A DNA stretch of 64,000 nt, from assembly GCA_903847975.1 (NCBI GenBank), contig CAINFC010000101.1:1-64000 (forward strand). Reading direction: 5' to 3'. The notes under the pieces were generated by a model. It made no database searches, was not told where the DNA came from, and was given only the letters and a program-made list of their open reading frames with translations. The position numbers and the translations under genes are program-made. Numbering within the stretch: the first letter of the stretch is position 1; each line of letters begins with the position of its first letter. Shown one piece after another: positions 51,722 through 60,859 of this stretch. The DNA comes from an uncultured Acidobacteriota bacterium. GTDB taxonomy: Bacteria; Acidobacteriota; UBA6911; CAINFC01.

Positions 51722-52030
51722 ATGACCACCGATGAAACCGTGCTCCAGGCTTCGGCGTTGTTCCTCCATACCTTTCTCCTCCAGTTGCGAGTCCTCTCCC
51801 AAGCTATTACCGGGTTGGATCAGAAAACCCAGGAGGTAACCCAGCGCCAAACCTGATGACGGAAGTAACCGCAGGTTCAACGGAGCCGGTGTCGTCCTGG
51901 CCCCGCGCCTCCAGGCCATCCTCGGAGACAATCGTCAACGCATTACTTCCGCGCGGCAACGGGTCGACTATCCCAGCATTGCTCCCGTCTTAGACCGCCG
52001 CGGTAACCCTTTCCATACCCGCCGCCTGTC
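51722..52030 (+). pseudogene. IS110-family transposase remnant
   Basis: Two adjacent plus frames together read like the C-terminal half of an IS110 transposase. The first (51722 onward) gives the helical DETVLQASALFLHTFLLQLR and LSQAITGLDQKTQEVTQ, then a stop. The second, shifted by one base, gives GAGVVLAPRLQAILGDNRQR, then ITSARQRVDYPSIAPVLDRR. This is the transposase_20 pattern (L-P-G-x-G-x-V-L-A-x-R-L ... Y-x-G-I-A-P-V). It lacks the N-terminal DEDD nuclease half and has stops and a frameshift, so it is dead. It lies at the edge of the lasso cluster. Confidence 0.65.
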
Positions 52031-53279
52031 AAAACGACAGAAGGGTGCGGAAGTCCACAGAACGGCAGAAGGCGATCCTATTAAGACAGAGATCCCGGAA
52101 CGCAGTTTCTCCCAAGGGAAGATCGTGGGGCTTCTGCATCGTTTCACCATCCCAGACCGTGTTGGCTTCCAGGATCGCCGGCCCCTGTTCGGTAATCGCC
52201 ACACCCCAGCCTAATGAAAAATAACCGGCATAATGCGTATGGGCCCGCATTGCGGTCTCCAGCGCCTCCTTCCAGAAGGTAAGAATTCTCCCGGCGATCG
52301 GCGCGCCGGTATCGGGGTGGCGGACATATTCCGCTCCGGTCCATCCGCACGGAACCGCTCTTCCCGGCACACCGGAAATCCCGTCCACCGGAGCAAGCAC
52401 AAAGTCGGGTCTTAACGTCTTCTTCCCGATCGGGAGGATCGGCACACTCATCAGATGCCGTATCATATCGGCTTCCGCACAAAGGGTGACGATTCGGAGG
52501 AGGACCAGGGCATGCTCCCCAATGGGCTCCGGCGTAGGATGGTTTTTGACTCTCCGCTGCGCGATGATCGCCCCCTTCTCTTGGGTGGCATTCCTCCGGA
52601 TATGTCGGATCAGGCCGGCCGAATCAAGCAGGAAATCCTGATACAAGTATTTCCCTTGGCTGTATATCCATTGTTCCACGCCTCTGTCTCTGGATCCGTT
52701 TGCCGGCTTGAGAATTAAATCCTCCGACGGCAGGGAATCGGCCTGCGGTCAATCACCGGCCATCATTGCGTGGTTCCCCTGCTCGCTCATACCGGCATAA
52801 ACCGCAGGCACCGGAACGGAAAATTGCCGACAGGTTTCGTAAAACCTTCGCTTGTCGTTCACTCTATCCCCGCAGCTGTGATTCAGGGCGGGCAGCAAAA
52901 TCCGAGCCTCATGGCCGAAGAGATATTTTTCCGTCCGGTCCTTATTGGTTCCGACAAAAAGTTGGTACCGGTAATGGTTCAGCGGTGTCGCGTTTTTAGA
53001 CAAAGAAAGGGCAAAGCATTCCAGCGCCAATCCCAACGCGCTGCCGGGCTTCCTGGTTTTCACCGTTTTTCCGAATCGACCGGCAAAGTAGAACGAAAGA
53101 ACCAAGGCCAGAATCGGCCAGGAAAGAAAAATCATGGCCCGGACCGTCTTGATCCAGCCATCTCTCTCCGCCAAACCTTTCCGCAAAATGTAGAGCCGAA
53201 GCCGGTAGCCGGGCTTGGCCCTGTTCCGGAATTCCGAACAGAAATACGGCAGGCTTTCGCTCTGGTACCGGCACAGCAT
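52029..53279 (-). pseudogene. Sugar-transfer-associated ATP-grasp-like gene with in-frame TGA
   Basis: One frame runs from ATG 53279 to a stop at 52029 (about 417 codons) with a single TGA at 52749-52751. The upstream part has a membrane-proximal N-terminus, then LNHYRYQLFVGTNKDRTEKY and CGDRVNDKRRFYETCRQFSV. The downstream part continues without loss (LPSEDLILKPANGSRDRGVE, GAIIAQRRVKNHP, FVLAPVDGISGVPGRAVPCG, GWGVAITEQGPAILEANTVWDG). The pattern is that of the ATP-grasp family linked with sugar transfer (PF14397 type), with the ATP-binding Lys in LILKPANGS. It starts 57 bases after the cyclase gene and looks like the last gene of the lasso operon. Confidence 0.72.
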
Positions 53280-53335: not shown

Positions 53336-55147
53336 TTACGGAATCCGGGCCGATCGGGATCGTTCGATTGCCTCCTGCAAGTCCCAGCAGTAGCCGAGGA
53401 TTCTCCGCAGGTTGCCTCTCCGGTTCGGATCCTTCGAACGCAGCGCTTTTTCGACTTCAGAAAAATTCAAATAGGCTGAAAATAGCCCTCGGTCCAATTT
53501 CCCCATCCTTTGAGCCAATGCTTCGCATTCGGCGTCCGCACTCTTCTCCCCGAATTCCATTCTGGCGGGGTCGTCCTTATGCGCATAATCGCAAATCTCT
53601 TTCGGCAGGATTCCGGCAAAGGCTTTTCGGTACACATACCGGTTGATACCCCTTTTCAGGAATATCGGCGTCGGCATGGATACGGCCAGGTCAACGACTC
53701 GAAAGTCCAATAGCGGAAACACATAGCGGATATCGCTTTCCGCGCCCTTTTGGGCGCTGAGTTCCGTTCGGGTCTGGATATTTCCGGACTCGATATGTTT
53801 CCGGAGATCGATGTTGAAATAGAGCCGTTTCTTCGGGTGACTTTTTTTCATCGCCTTGACCCCAGGCTTCCGGACGACATCCCAATGATTCCGGGGGAGG
53901 TCGCCGGTAAAATTCCGGCGCCTGACAGAGGAAAAGACCGTGCTGCCCAGAAGAACTCTCAGGAACTTTAGAGGAGAGCCGCCGGCCGCTGCGGCTGCCT
54001 CCTGCAGAAATGCCGAGAAATAGCCGTTGACCCAAAGTTCGTACAGATTGGCTCTATGGCTGATGCCCTGATCTCCCCCCCACCCGGAAAGGACATAGCG
54101 CACCCCCTGCCGGACCATCCACCTTTGTTCCTGCTCCAGCGGATACAGAGGGCCTTCTTCCCCCGGCAGGAACGGATCGAAATACCGGCAGCTCAGCCCC
54201 TCCTGCCGGCAAGGCAGCTCCACCAGCCTTCTTTCGTCCCGCTCCAGCATGGCCACCGCTTCGAAATCGGGAGACCAGGAAAAAAGGGGCATTCGGTAAT
54301 TTATCTTCTGCAGCTCCCGGTTGGCTAAAGCAACCACAACAGAGGAGTCCAGCCCGCCGCTGAGCTGCGCCCCGGCGCCGTCGCCGATGGCCTCCAGCCG
54401 GATGCGGACGGCATCCCGGACGATTTCGAAGACCTCCTGGCTATATTGCTCCTCGGTTTTGTCTTTTCCCTTTTTGGCACAGAACGACCAGTAACGGTAT
54501 TTTGTCAACTGTCCCCCGGCCACTTCGAGGATATGAGCCTGCTCCAGCTTTTTCACCTGCGCAAAGCCGGTATGCACCGGATCCAAAACAATTTCATTGC
54601 ACAGGACGGCATAAAGCTTTCCTTCATCCGGCGTTTTTGGCACGTAAGGCAGGGCGAGAATGGCATCCAGGTCCGACGCGAAAACAAACACCGCAGGTCT
54701 GTGAAAAAAGAAAAGCGGTCTTACCCCCAGGTGATCGCGGGCGAGGATCAGCCTTTGCGAAGCCTTCTCCCATAGCACAAATGCGAAGTCGCCATTGATA
54801 TGGCGGGGGCAGTTCTTGCCCCATTTGCGGTAGGCACCCAGGATCAGTTCCGGATCCGATGGATTTCTGCCCCCGGCCGGGTGCAGCTCCCGGAGAAGCG
54901 ATTCGCGATTATAAACCAATGCATCCGCCGCGATCACGCGGTCCGCTTCCCGATCGACAAATACCGCCTGCTCCGCTTGGGTGTGCCTGCTCAGCCCATC
55001 GAGGCAGCAACCTAAAGCCAGGCTCCCATCCGCATGAATTCGCTGCGCACGTCTTCCGTAAGGACGCAAGCGGTCCATCATCAGACGGATGTGGCTTAAA
55101 TCCACCGGCAGGCCGTCCAGCTGCCAGATACCGAAAACCGCACTCAT
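53336..55147 (-). CDS. Lasso peptide macrolactam synthetase (C protein, asparagine-synthetase-like)
   Basis: A 603-residue AsnB-like protein. The glutaminase-like N-terminal domain begins MSAVFGIWQLDG, so residue 2 is Ser and the ammonia-releasing Cys is missing, as expected for lasso cyclases. It then shows HINGDFAFVLWEKASQRLIL and ARDHLGVRPLFFF. The synthetase domain has the ATP pyrophosphatase loop QLSGGLDSSVVVALAN, then GWGGDQGIS and the C-terminal RYVFPLLDFRVVDLAVSMPT. It is predicted to adenylate the Glu9 side chain of the core peptide and close the ring onto Gly1. It lies downstream of the precursor gene and its terminator, on the same strand. Confidence 0.9.
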   Translation of the reverse strand: MSAVFGIWQLDGLPVDLSHIRLMMDRLRPYGRRAQRIHADGSLALGCCLDGLSRHTQAEQAVFVDREADRVIAADALVYNRESLLRELHPAGGRNPSDPELILGAYRKWGKNCPRHINGDFAFVLWEKASQRLILARDHLGVRPLFFFHRPAVFVFASDLDAILALPYVPKTPDEGKLYAVLCNEIVLDPVHTGFAQVKKLEQAHILEVAGGQLTKYRYWSFCAKKGKDKTEEQYSQEVFEIVRDAVRIRLEAIGDGAGAQLSGGLDSSVVVALANRELQKINYRMPLFSWSPDFEAVAMLERDERRLVELPCRQEGLSCRYFDPFLPGEEGPLYPLEQEQRWMVRQGVRYVLSGWGGDQGISHRANLYELWVNGYFSAFLQEAAAAAGGSPLKFLRVLLGSTVFSSVRRRNFTGDLPRNHWDVVRKPGVKAMKKSHPKKRLYFNIDLRKHIESGNIQTRTELSAQKGAESDIRYVFPLLDFRVVDLAVSMPTPIFLKRGINRYVYRKAFAGILPKEICDYAHKDDPARMEFGEKSADAECEALAQRMGKLDRGLFSAYLNFSEVEKALRSKDPNRRGNLRRILGYCWDLQEAIERSRSARIP

Positions 55148-55522: not shown

Positions 55523-55687
55523 TTAGCTGCCTGATTTCACATACCCAAAAAAAGCATTCTCATACGTCTTTGGTATTTTGCCGCCTTCCGTTTTGCCAAG
55601 CGGCAGTTCCTGCACCGTCGGAGAGGTCCATTCTTTTTTCCGTTTTTTGTTTCCATTTTCCTGCGCAGCAGTCCATTCGCTATTCAT
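55523..55687 (-). CDS. Lasso peptide precursor (A), 54 residues
   Basis: ATG 55687 is preceded by GAGGAGA at nine bases. The leader is about 34 residues, Lys-rich (KKRKKEW). Counting back from the core, it carries Trp at -15, Pro at -12, Val at -10 and Thr at -2, the spacing of paeninodin-type leaders (Y/W-x2-P-x-L ... T-x). The predicted core starts at Gly35: ring GGKIPKTYE, then tail NAFFGYVKSGS. Glu9 allows a Gly1-Glu9 macrolactam. Phe12, Phe13 and Tyr15 are candidate plugs. The C-terminal Ser20 is the residue phosphorylated by HPr-kinase-like enzymes in paeninodin-type systems. It lies between the B1 gene and the cyclase gene, and is followed by a terminator. The only alternative is a chance ORF, which the combined motifs make unlikely. 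Confidence 0.88.
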   Translation of the reverse strand: MNSEWTAAQENGNKKRKKEWTSPTVQELPLGKTEGGKIPKTYENAFFGYVKSGS

Positions 55688-56000: not shown

Positions 56001-56288
56001 TCAAACCTCCTGCTCCACCAGGCCCTGGTCGTAGATCTCATTCAAAAACGTCAGCGTTTCCTGCAGGCAACGCTCTTCCCCCACCTCATATTGGTCCGTC
56101 AGGCTTTTGACGATCGCCCGCACTGTTACCGGCTTCTCTATCAGGGACCATATGGCTCCGCCAGTCGGCCCCAGATGGTAATACTTTTCCGTGGAAATAC
56201 TCATTACTACCGTATCTCCGTCCAAATCCGCGGAGACGATCTCCTGGTTTCGCCGCACAATGGAGTCTGCTTTTATTCCTTCTCTCAT
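56001..56288 (-). CDS. PqqD-like leader-binding protein (lasso B1/RRE)
   Basis: The 95-residue product from ATG 56288 has the PqqD/RiPP recognition element pattern. It begins IKADSIVRRNQEIVSADLDG, continues TVVMSISTEKYYHLGPTGGA, IWSLIEKPVTVRAIVKSLTD and VGEERCLQETLTFLNEIYDQ, and ends GLVEQEV. Such proteins bind the leader through a winged helix-turn-helix and deliver the precursor to the processing enzymes. AGAAAGGA lies just before this ATG; in-frame ATGs at 56294 and 56321 are alternatives. It follows the sulfotransferase gene with a short gap. The protease partner (B2), often encoded next, is not seen. Confidence 0.9.
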   Translation of the reverse strand: MREGIKADSIVRRNQEIVSADLDGDTVVMSISTEKYYHLGPTGGAIWSLIEKPVTVRAIVKSLTDQYEVGEERCLQETLTFLNEIYDQGLVEQEV

Positions 56289-56324
56289 TTGCATCCTTTC
56301 TCGTTTTCCGGTTCTTTCCATTAT

Positions 56325-57182
56325 TTAAAATACAATTTCACCCCGGCGATCGAGGTACCCGAATTTCTCCATAACCTCTCTATGCGCCCGGACCAGCTGC
56401 CCCACTTGCCGCTCCGTCAGATGGAGGCGCCAGTCACCCACCTCACCCCGGCGGAAAAAGGCCTGGACCATGTAAGGCTTCTCGTGGAAGCCCTCCTTTT
56501 TTTCCGCCTCCTGCAGCTTGGCGAAAACGGACGCATCTACCGCCCGGCGGACGGTCTCCGCGTCATAATCCAGTTCCATAAAGTTTGCTGCCGCCGTAAA
56601 AGTTTCCAAAGGATTGAGCTTCATGTCCTCAAAGCGGATGGTATGAACCGGCAGCTCCCCTGCGCCGGTCCAGCTTTGCACATGTCCACTCCAGGTCAGC
56701 AGCTTCTGCCGCAACTGATTTGCCAGTCTTCTTTCGTTCCGGCAGAAAACATATTCCGGGTCTCCCATGTTGTTGATGGTGGTGTCCAAATCGCATGAGG
56801 AATGGTTCGAAAAGGAAACCGCCACATCCAGGGGATTTCGCAGGAAGTAAATGGCTTTTGCGTTCCGCGTACCCAGAAGCGGACTCCCGTCATCCAGATA
56901 GGTGAAGGCATCGCGGACCTTGATGTAAAGATTGCCGGGTAGCCCTTCGGCAAGATGGTTATAGGCCGCCGGCCTCAGCCGGTCGATTTCCTCCGGTGTC
57001 AGGTTGGAAGCCTCGATGCCGGTCATGCTGTCCAAAATGATTCTGGAACTGAAAATGCCGTCGGTATGTAGATGGTTGATGCTGACCGTTTCCTCTTTTT
57101 CCTTCAGAAGGTTGGATAGAAAGGTACGAAACCAGGTGTTCCCTGATTTAGGATAAGAGGCCAGCCATATTATCTTAGCCAC
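56325..57182 (-). CDS. Sulfotransferase in the lasso peptide cluster
   Basis: A 285-residue cytosolic-type sulfotransferase starting at GTG 57182. The 5'-phosphosulfate loop is WLASYPKSGNTWFRTFLSNL (Lys12/Ser13), and the 3'-phosphate region is AIYFLRNPLDVAVSFSNHSS. The dimer/KTVE-like end appears as VQAFFRRGEVGDWRLHLTER. PAPS-dependent sulfation of a hydroxyl (Ser, Thr or Tyr) is the family reaction. The core peptide offers Tyr8, Tyr15, Thr7, Ser18 and Ser20. It overlaps the end of the second HPr-kinase-like gene by eight bases, so it belongs to the lasso operon. Confidence 0.88.
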   Translation of the reverse strand: MAKIIWLASYPKSGNTWFRTFLSNLLKEKEETVSINHLHTDGIFSSRIILDSMTGIEASNLTPEEIDRLRPAAYNHLAEGLPGNLYIKVRDAFTYLDDGSPLLGTRNAKAIYFLRNPLDVAVSFSNHSSCDLDTTINNMGDPEYVFCRNERRLANQLRQKLLTWSGHVQSWTGAGELPVHTIRFEDMKLNPLETFTAAANFMELDYDAETVRRAVDASVFAKLQEAEKKEGFHEKPYMVQAFFRRGEVGDWRLHLTERQVGQLVRAHREVMEKFGYLDRRGEIVF

Positions 57183-58076
57183 GCCTGGCCATCTCCTCGA
57201 ACAGGCAATCTACTGTTTCTCCCACCGGCAGCGCTTCGGTATTGATTCTGCATGCGGCAAGCTTCGCCTGGCCGCCGGCGACCGCCCAATTTTTAAAATG
57301 CTCGATCTTGGCCGGCGTGCCTTCCGTCAGGGAAATGTTGCGTCCGTATTGATACATCTCCTTCAATTTATTCGCTCCTGAAACCGTATGGATTTCTACG
57401 CTTGCCCGGTTGGAGCTCTTCAGAAAGAAAATATGGGCTAAAGGCACCGGCTGCCGGCAAAACCGGTCCGCCACCGGGAACGCATATTTTTTTAACCCTT
57501 TTCGGATCGGGCGGTACGCCGCGGTATCTTTCTGCGCGGCAGTCAGGCCATCGTGCCATACGCCCAGCTGGGGCACCCCGGGCAATGCCACCGCCGCCCC
57601 TGTCCGGTCAAGGCTTACCGCACAGCTGTCATCGGCCAGCAGACGAAGGCCTCTGTCGTAGAGCTCCAGGGCAATGGCCGTTTTCCCCGCTCCGGAAAAA
57701 CCGCAGAAGAGCACGGCGCGGCCGCCGATTTCCGCCGCCGAGGCGTGAAAAACGGCGATCCCCCGCTGCTGAACGGCACAGGCCATTACGGAATCGAGGA
57801 GAAAAACGCGGATATCCTCTTCCGTGGCACCCGGAAAAGGCTCAATCGTCAACCGGGTTCCGCACTGCAGGTATACCTTGCGATCCCGTCCACGCGGAGA
57901 AGAATCTCCCGGTTGCCGGCCTGGCACCAGGGATTTTTTTGCTTCACCGTTTCGAGATTTTCCGGTGTTTTTCCCACTCGAATGGTAATGTCGGCTTCCT
58001 GGCCCCGGTCCTCCGCGCCGAAAAGCTCAGGCAGCCTAATTTCCGAATGGAGTCTTAGTCCGAAAAGACTATACAT
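57175..58076 (-). pseudogene. HPr-kinase-like lasso tailoring kinase, frameshifted (copy nearer the precursor)
   Basis: The start is ATG 58076 with GGGAAA upstream. The N-terminal part (MYSLFGLRLHSEIRLPELFG ... LLRVDGIARY) is in one frame, which stops near 57849. From about 57870 the next frame carries on (YLQCGTRLTIEPFPGATEED, AVFHASAAEIGGRAVLFCGF). It has Walker A GFSGAGKTA, LADDSCAVSLDRTG and the C-terminal region. Together they make about 300 residues, the normal length of HprK-like RiPP kinases. No homopolymer run sits at the break. The intact enzyme would use ATP to phosphorylate a Ser hydroxyl, by precedent the C-terminal Ser of the precursor. Confidence 0.75.
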
Positions 58077-58105
58077 TTTTCCCATTTAGCGGTTGGTGTT
58101 TCGTC

Positions 58106-59296
58106 TTATTTCCGTACCGGCTCTAACAGCCCGAGAAACGCAGCTACATGCGTCAATTCAAAGAGACGGTATTTTTCGAGCACAGCGCCAAGCGGGACAG
58201 CAAAACCATATCCATGTGCGGTCACCCTGCAAAGGCTGAAAAAAAGCCGGCCGGTCTCGACGGAATCCACCCTCCCGGAATGCAGTTCCATTCCCCAAAG
58301 AATGGTTCGAATCATCGCATACTTGACGATCAGACCGAGGATCATGGGGACATAGCGGTCTTGACGGCGATGGTAGAAACCATTGTAAAGATCGCTGACC
58401 AGGTAGTTTTCGATGTGGATGCGATAGGGTTGGCACAGCAAATCTGCCGGTCTGCAGCGTCCCAGGTTGTTATTGTTCTGGAGCGCATGCAGCCCAATGA
58501 CGGCTTGGCGAAGAAAATCCTGACAGAGAATGTCGAGTTTCCCCAGGAGCCATTTTACGACCTCTTCCAGGACACGGATTTGAATCAGATGCCCCACCCC
58601 GGCGGGAATAAAACCGGAACCCTCCTCCGAAGAAAGGATTCCGGGCAAACGATCATATTCTTTTCCTGCCAGCACTTTTTCCAGCCGTCCGGATTTGTAC
58701 AATAGAGTGATCAGCCTTTGCTCGATCATCAACTCCTCCGTCTGCAGGACTTCTATAAAGCGTTGCTCGATAGTGATGACATCATAGGGGAACGCTTTTT
58801 CCTCGGTCCGGGAATCAGGAATATCCTCGGCGGCGGGCAGGGCGACGATGGCAATTTTCCGGGCCGTCAGCAGATATCGGGCCACTTCGGGGCAGGAATT
58901 CCGCAACACGGCCTCCCGGACCCCGTTGATTTGCCGATAAGTTCTGGGAAAGGAACGACAGATGGCGGCAAGGCAGTGGTCGCCGTATTTTTTATGAATG
59001 AAGCACAATCGATCCTCGTCGAGAAAAGGACAAAAGCCCGTTTCTCCAAACCGGATCCAGGCATATTTCCAGGATGCAGTTTGCCCCTCCGGCAGCAGCT
59101 GAATACTTTTGAAACGCTCCGCAAAATCGACGTCCCGGATTTCCAGATATTACCGGTAAACCTCTTTCTCGATGAATACCTTCCAGGAGCGGCAGCAGTT
59201 GCTTTCGCACTGTGCAGCCGTGCACGAAAAATCCGGAAAATAATCGGCGCACCGCACCAGCAGGTTCCGGCTGCCATTATGGATTGCGTCGCTCAT
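58106..59296 (-). pseudogene. FliB-like lysine N-methylase gene with in-frame TAA, in the lasso operon
   Basis: One frame runs from ATG 59296 to 58106 (396 codons) with a single TAA at 59150-59152 (codon 49). Before it: FPDFSCTAAQCESNCCRSWK, the C-x4-C-x3-CC cluster of FliB. After it: FCPFLDEDRLCFIHKKYGDH, then CLAAICRSFPRTYRQINGVR and SCPEVARYLL. This is the C-x7-C-x9-C pattern typical of flagellin lysine N-methylases, which bind an Fe-S cluster and methylate Lys. The start lies within the end of the upstream kinase gene (20-base overlap). No flagellar gene is in the window, so the substrate may be the Lys-containing lasso precursor (inference). Confidence 0.75.
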
Positions 59297-60235
59297 CGGT
59301 CCCTGTCCACGGCTTGGATGCGCCTTCCCTCGGCTTGAAAAATTCCGGCAGGATAAGCGCGGCGATTTCATTTTCCTGATGACCATACTTCGGCCGCTCA
59401 ATCCGCAGCACCCGAACCTTTTCTGCGATACGGGTACATTGCTCAAAATGCCACTGTGCCGTTTTCAAACCTTGGGTCATGAACCGGCGGTAAGTATTCC
59501 GGTGAATCACGTGAATTTTTTCCACGCCGGTTATCTCTTTTCGCTGCAGTTCTTTCACCTCCTCGGGAACGAGGTCGCAAATGATTTTTAAAGGAACCGG
59601 CTCCGTTTGAAAGGAATCGATGTAGGCTACAGAAAATTTATCCCGATTTTTGGAAATGCTCTGCACGGAGCCGAGGCGGGTGTTCTCCGCCATGCGCTCC
59701 ACAGCGTCCCGACACAGCTTATTATGCGGGTATCCCGGGAAAGCAATCGGAAAACCCGTTTCATCCAGCCGGACAGGCAGTACGTCATCCGCAAGGATCC
59801 GGCAACCCTGCCGGAAAAAGGCCGCCGCCACGGTGGATTTGCCCGCACCGGACCTGCCGGTCAGCAGCAGGCCATTTCCGGCCAGGTTGATGCCGCTGCC
59901 GTGCATGGGAAGGATTTTCTTTTGATGAAGCAGGGCTCCCATGCAGGAGCCGAGAAGATACAACTTCACTTCCTCCAGGTTGGCCCCCTCATAGGGTTGG
60001 AACCGTACCTCCCGACCCTTTTCCACCCGGGAGCGGGAAATGCCTTCCTGATCGAGGTAAAAAAATCCGGCCCTATTTTCCGGTTGTGGATTTGAATGGC
60101 CTCCCCATCAAAAGCATCTGCTACCTCTCCCTTTTCGATCCGTACCTCCGGGTCGCCGGCAAAATCGTCCCGGATCAGTTCCGGAAAAAAGGTATCCGAC
60201 GCAATGGATAATCCGAACGCTTTATACCGATACAT
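59277..60235 (-). pseudogene. HPr-kinase-like gene, frameshifted at an A7 tract (upstream copy)
   Basis: The N-terminal frame starts at ATG 60235 (MYRYKAFGLSIASDTFFPEL ... QIHNRKIGPDFF). The continuation is in another frame (YLDQEGISRSRVEKGREVRF, HGSGINLAGNGLLLTGRSGA). It includes Walker A GRSGAGKST, LADDVLPVRLDETGFPIAFP and the C-terminal region. The break coincides with seven consecutive A at 60059-60065; six would keep the frame open. The combined length, about 319 residues, is normal. It is a paralogue of the kinase gene at 57.2-58.1 kb. It could be a true mutation, a phase-variable tract or a sequencing error. It overlaps the FliB-like gene start by 20 bases. Confidence 0.75.
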
Positions 60236-60317: not shown

Positions 60318-60859
60318 TTAATCCAGCGGTCGAAAAGGGGCCTGGAAGAAGTACAGGTGATCCGGCTTGTAAGTCATTTTCATTCCCTTGGTTCCCAGTC
60401 GGCATTGTAAACCATCTTGACGCTCTCGGCGACCAAATTCATGTGTGCCTCTGGGTGCAGACAAGCCGGGGAATGGTCAACTGCGTCAGATCCAGCCGAA
60501 TAGCGGTGATCGCCGGTCCCGGGATCGCTCCCGGCGCTGACGATGCCGCGCTCCATCAGGTGGCATGCCTTTTCTGCCACCCGCTCATCATCGACTGCGA
60601 GCCAGCTGCCGATGCGGACCAGGTTGTCCTTCTCCTGGATAAAAAAGGCGTTTCCCGCCATGTGCGTGGCGTCCAGGCAGACCGGAATGCCGTAGCTGTC
60701 GCAAAGCGCGCGAAGCGCCCTAATTTTGGCCATGTTAACCGGATGCCCGCCGGCCAGTTTACTGAACATTCCCGTCAAAATCAAGGTATCGATCCTTAAG
60801 GGAAGATTCATGTAATCCCGGCTGTACCCCATGAACAGGCCCAAGGGTAACGCCGTCAC
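60318..60859 (-). pseudogene. Tryptophanase/tyrosine phenol-lyase remnant
   Basis: Pieces of a PLP-dependent beta-eliminating lyase are in order: LAGGHPVNMAKIRALRALCD, YGIPVCLDATHMAGNAFFIQ, KDNLVRIGSWLAVDDERVAE, MERGIVSAGSDPGTGDHRY, HMNLVAESVKMVYN. A shifted frame follows, MTYKPDHLYFFQAPFRPLD, matching the C-terminus of tryptophanase. The N-terminal third and two internal blocks, including the PLP-lysine surroundings, are missing. It cannot be active. It lies immediately upstream of the lasso cluster genes on the same strand and marks the island border. Confidence 0.7.

Follow-up and report, generated by a model that had tools for sequence, protein, structure and literature searches.

A broken FliB-family gene inside a probably decayed lasso peptide operon of an uncultured Acidobacteriota bacterium

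Introduction

Linkage to flagellin genes is common, though not universal, in the FliB family. In Salmonella FliB, the [4Fe-4S] cluster on which methylation depends is bound by a CX4CX3CC motif, SAM is the source of the methyl group, and eight cysteines have been described as highly conserved (PMC8598068). Lasso peptide precursors are tailored as linear peptides, sometimes with the help of the B1 protein, and the modifications include phosphorylation of the C-terminal Ser (PMC9266682; PMC10368454), which is the target of PadeK-type kinases (PMC9266682). Some paeninodin-type clusters of Firmicutes are known to include a gene for a sulfotransferase (PMC8498205); the portions of the reviews available to us hold no description of the product of a lasso-cluster sulfotransferase. 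The lasso peptide albusnodin is acetylated on Lys (PMC8498205), and O-methylation is known in lassomycin-like and lihuanodin-like peptides (PMC8498205; PMC9266682).

Here we describe a FliB-like gene that lies within a lasso peptide operon, in a 64,000-nucleotide stretch of an uncultured Acidobacteriota genome (the window). The original prediction for this gene, made from the sequence, was lysine N-methylation of the lasso peptide, with the remark that such a modification is not established for this class of peptides. The literature that we searched agrees with the remark: it describes no case in which a FliB-type enzyme N-methylates a lysine of a lasso peptide, and contains no report that brings FliB together with lasso peptides or with RiPPs.

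Results

The FliB-like gene is interrupted by a single stop codon

The features of the locus are collected in Table 1. The FliB frame (59296-58106) contains one internal stop, a TAA at codon 49 (bases 59152-59150), which falls after the CX4CX3CC motif and ahead of the remaining conserved cysteines. Aligned across the stop, the frame scored 143.9 bits (E 2.5e-41) against NF038110, the flagellin lysine-N-methylase model, whose cut-off is 85; the post-stop part alone scored 106.2 bits, and a genome-wide search with this profile returned no other match. The two FliB-type patterns named in the original prediction are present in the protein. C-x4-C-x3-CC corresponds to C25, C30, C34 and C35, and CPFLDEDRLC holds C89 and C98; together with C113 and C135 these make up a set of eight cysteines that is unchanged in all 16 aligned sequences, the window protein and 15 relatives. 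The PF03692 profile did not detect the gene. A YkgJ-type generic metal-binding protein was considered and rejected, since the FliB model was passed and PF03692 was unmatched.

Table 1. Features of the FliB-containing lasso locus (window coordinates)
Feature	Position	Strand	Basis and state
HPrK-like lasso kinase 1	59277..60235	minus	profile; frameshifted near 60000; 20-bp FliB overlap
FliB-family gene, pseudogene	58106..59296	minus	396 codons, TAA at codon 49; NF038110 match
in-frame TAA within FliB frame	59150..59152	minus	read from frame
HPrK-like lasso kinase 2	57175..58085	minus	profile; frameshifted near 57900
sulfotransferase (PF00685)	56325..57182	minus	profile; frame intact
lasso B1, PqqD-like recognition element	56001..56321	minus	NF033536 above cut-off; frame intact
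lasso precursor	55523..55687	minus	frame intact; proposed core GGKIPKTYENAFFGYVKSGS at 55526-55585
asparagine-synthetase-like lasso cyclase	53336..55147	minus	profile; frame intact
sugar-transfer associated ATP-grasp gene (PF14397), in pieces	52029..53279	minus	downstream of cyclase

After the stop the frame stays open for 347 codons, a length for which composition alone gives a chance probability of about 3e-7. The codon bias before and after the stop is that of the host, and equals that of the sulfotransferase and cyclase genes, whose frames are intact. The long open stretch and the in-frame codon bias show the gene to have been real until recently. No intact frame from which the FliB enzyme could be made is present in the sequenced genome, where translation would end after 48 residues and the enzyme would not be made. 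Recoding of the TAA was also considered and rejected; nothing suggests it, and it would leave the frameshifts in the kinase genes unexplained. Judged by its family and motifs, the intact ancestor is predicted to have been a SAM-dependent lysine methyltransferase.

The gene lies within a lasso peptide operon

The genes are found on the same strand in the order kinase 1, FliB, kinase 2, sulfotransferase, B1, precursor, cyclase. Kinase 1 and the FliB-like gene overlap by 20 bp (59277-59296), in agreement with the overlap described originally, and a 20 bp spacer separates the FliB-like gene from kinase 2. From kinase 1 to B1, adjacent genes either overlap, by 20 or 8 bp, or are separated by 3 to 20 bp, a packing that appears typical of a single transcription unit. 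Close spacing on one strand and host-like codons speak for membership of the FliB-like gene in the lasso operon.

The lasso context had likewise been predicted and was borne out by the presence of a cyclase-like gene, a paeninodin-like precursor, two HPrK-like kinases, a sulfotransferase and a B1 gene whose product scored 92.2 bits against NF033536 (cut-off 80). The best model for the cyclase was NF033535, at 277 bits and below its cut-off of 525, and the match of the precursor to NF033524 was below the curated cut-off; for these two proteins the best or only matches were to lasso models, all of them sub-cut-off. No gene for a B2 leader peptidase (PF13471) was found in the FliB-containing cluster. 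The precursor can be divided into a leader, MNSEWTAAQENGNKKRKKEWTSPTVQELPLGKTE, and a core, GGKIPKTYENAFFGYVKSGS. This cut was placed by inspection from the Thr at position -2 and a putative Gly1-Glu9 ring: the junction, KTE/GGKIPKTYE, presents Thr(-2), Gly1 and an acidic residue within positions 7-9. Provided that the core is as proposed, it contains Lys3, Lys6 and Lys17, the three lysines on which the original prediction was built, and a C-terminal Ser. Whether the ATP-grasp gene downstream of the cyclase has a link to the lasso pathway is uncertain. At another acidobacterial locus (L114), ATP-grasp and cyclase homologues are likewise found side by side.

Three neighbouring genes of the operon are broken

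Comparison with the kinases of the genome's second lasso cluster and of Clostridium drakei revealed one frame change in each kinase gene of the window, and no intact HPrK-like kinase is encoded in the FliB-containing cluster. Neither these frameshifts nor the absence of B2 had been mentioned in the original prediction. Assembly or consensus errors might account for the stop and the frameshifts, in which case the operon would be intact and active in the organism. Three neighbouring genes (both kinases and FliB) carry just one lesion each, their frames and codon bias being otherwise kept, and the sequence comes from a single draft genome of 326 contigs, as such errors would have it. Further broken genes, however, flank the cluster on both sides, open-frame coverage, high across most of the remaining window, falls in parts of 50-61 kb, and the lesion in FliB is a nonsense codon rather than a change in homopolymer length. 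We consider sequencing artefacts distinctly improbable as an explanation and infer that the operon has genuinely, and recently, decayed. Since the FliB-like gene is broken, this organism offers no product for testing. Just upstream of the operon (60380-60859) lies a fragment of a beta-eliminating lyase gene (PF01212), apparently a pseudogene remnant.

The genome encodes a second lasso-type cluster (L070, G000:C123, 2629-7789) in the order kinase-kinase-sulfotransferase-B1-cyclase. It is similar to the window cluster in its kinases, sulfotransferase, B1 and cyclase and in having no B2; in contrast to the window kinases, which are frameshifted and flank FliB, its kinase frames are intact and adjacent, with no FliB between them. 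A small ORF at 15-155 of the same locus contains a leader-like W..P.M motif. The single PF13471 B2 of the genome is located on contig C185 (L258, G000:C185, 8693-10348), beside an NTP_transf_5 nucleotidyltransferase, and no other lasso proteins were detected near it. Although distant from both lasso clusters, this B2 may serve them in trans.

FliB and lasso genes do not recur together in the sampled genomes

The association was followed up from both sides. For the lasso side, we collected 40 stretches that surround B1-like genes in the phylum and added this genome's second cluster; a locus was counted as a lasso cluster if a cyclase-like gene occurred with B1, or with a kinase and a sulfotransferase, and 22 qualified by manual count. 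None of these 22 other acidobacterial clusters, which include the sister cluster and three other kinase-sulfotransferase clusters, contains a FliB gene. A sulfotransferase is encoded in four of the 22. Lasso clusters with both a kinase and a sulfotransferase occur repeatedly in the phylum, at loci L111, L116 and L118 besides the one in the window (56325-57182).

For the FliB side, 78 loci were taken from Acidobacteriota (all but the weakest matches of this phylum), from the phylum of C. drakei and from that of Azohydromonas, with reference-genome loci added; the flanks were mostly about 10 kb a side, some being ended by contig ends. A lasso B1 was found near FliB at none of the 78, nor at any of 30 further Clostridiales loci with 1.5-kb flanks. 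When reference genomes were scanned with an alignment of two FliB sequences, seven loci were recovered, and lasso genes were absent from all of them. FliB was found in no other sampled genome of the class (37 genomes). FliB matches in a plasmid search came from Enterobacteria and Selenomonas only, and neither the viral contigs nor the PDB sequences contained a relative. These samples amount to hundreds of genomes out of a larger number, leaving room for a rare co-occurrence of FliB and lasso genes elsewhere. The neighbourhood check that the original prediction had suggested thus yielded no co-occurrence, a result close to what it had named as its refutation (related clusters that lack FliB), and its notion of a new tailoring class has no support beyond one broken locus. 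The proposal of lysine N-methylation itself finds partial support, in FliB family membership and operon context.

What the FliB-like gene is doing in the operon can be read in other ways. It may have encoded a methylase for lysines of flagellin or another cell-surface protein that came into the lasso operon by chance and decayed after it had parted from its substrate gene. As originally claimed, a profile search detected no flagellin in the window; the argument from this absence fails genome-wide, because two typical flagellins, one of them adjoining a FliD-like gene, are encoded on other contigs, as are FlgL-like proteins, and the window gene is the sole FliB of the genome. Flagellin is also the commonest family among direct neighbours of FliB and is present in the fetched stretch at 16 of the 78 loci (manual count), and the other sampled lasso clusters are without FliB. 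Such a reading is harder to reconcile with the co-linear kinase overlap, the place between two kinases and the host-like codons, which point to a long residence in the operon, or with the distance of the window protein from flagellin-linked FliBs (at most 27% identity). We regard it as fairly unlikely.

The enzyme might, instead, have belonged to the lasso pathway or to the host and acted on some other protein or peptide, the substrates of FliB being wider than its name. At most of the 78 loci the retrieved sequence contains no flagellin, and only one of the 30 Clostridiales loci has a flagellin beside FliB (1.5-kb flanks). In the order of C. drakei, FliB-family genes are present in 114 of 225 genomes, with up to seven per genome (sampled copies L259-L288). 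The family probably calls for a broader name than flagellin lysine-N-methylase. The window protein is, moreover, highly divergent: it shares at most 27% identity with any sampled FliB, and in a quick tree its branch is long (2.08) and joins no supported kin. The FliBs of same-phylum genomes group with Edaphobacter in this tree, which points to Acidobacteriota as the phylum. The long branch could equally well reflect an ancient shift in role or rapid divergence. Yet a lysine-containing precursor encoded in the same cluster is the simplest substrate, and no gene for an alternative one was identified; action on another target is, in our view, unlikely.

Discussion

We propose that the gene at 58106..59296 is the inactivated FliB-family member of a five-gene unit, and that its intact ancestor modified lysines of the lasso precursor. 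We assign this reading a probability of roughly 45% and, mainly on account of the operon packing, rank it as the single most likely. Also in its favour are the host-like codons, the conserved cluster motif, the known tailoring of linear lasso precursors, the lysines and C-terminal Ser of the proposed core, and the rarity of FliB, which occurs once in this genome and in no other sampled genome of the class. The transcription unit would have comprised kinase 1, FliB, kinase 2, the sulfotransferase and B1, beside a paeninodin-type precursor and a cyclase. In the ancestor, a [4Fe-4S] cluster held by CX4CX3CC would have used SAM to methylate the epsilon-amino group of lysine, the presumed targets being Lys3, Lys6 or Lys17, singly or in combination, of the linear precursor as presented by B1. 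Phosphorylation of the C-terminal Ser, possibly sulfation, leader removal and ring closure might then have followed, in an order that we give as a conjecture along with substrate and site.

Against a lasso-modifying ancestor stand the lack of co-occurrence (0/22, 0/78 and 0/30), the flagellins of the genome, the broken gene and the cluster without B2. The case is a single, non-recurrent and broken instance, suggestive as a one-off lead. The more general idea, that [4Fe-4S] methyltransferases of the FliB family can be recruited into lasso (RiPP) operons for N-methylation of precursor lysines and that the window cluster is what decay has left of such a pathway, is possible and is put forward tentatively. 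Should an intact relative methylate its precursor, lysine N-methylation would be a new lasso modification, and a poorly understood family of [4Fe-4S]-SAM methyltransferases would gain a small, well-defined substrate other than flagellin. The present case depends on one broken gene.

The closest described systems each share some of these features. With Salmonella FliB and the NF038110 family, the window protein has in common CX4CX3CC, a CPFL-x4-LC segment, eight cysteines, a similar length and an above-cut-off profile match; it differs in having at most 27% identity to any sampled FliB, and in a gene that lies inside a lasso operon with no flagellin neighbour and stops at codon 49. The phosphorylated paeninodin-type clusters (PadeK, ThcoK, SyanK) resemble the window cluster in their HPrK-like kinases, separate B1, precursor with C-terminal Ser, and cyclase, whereas the window cluster has two frameshifted kinases, no B2 and an additional FliB-like gene. 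Albusnodin, in which AlbT acetylates Lys10, is a precedent for the tailoring of a lysine side chain, but AlbT is a GNAT acetyltransferase and not a [4Fe-4S] methyltransferase. StspM of the lassomycin-like peptides and LihM of lihuanodin establish methylation as a lasso modification; they are O-methyltransferases that act on carboxylates, an enzyme type unlike FliB.
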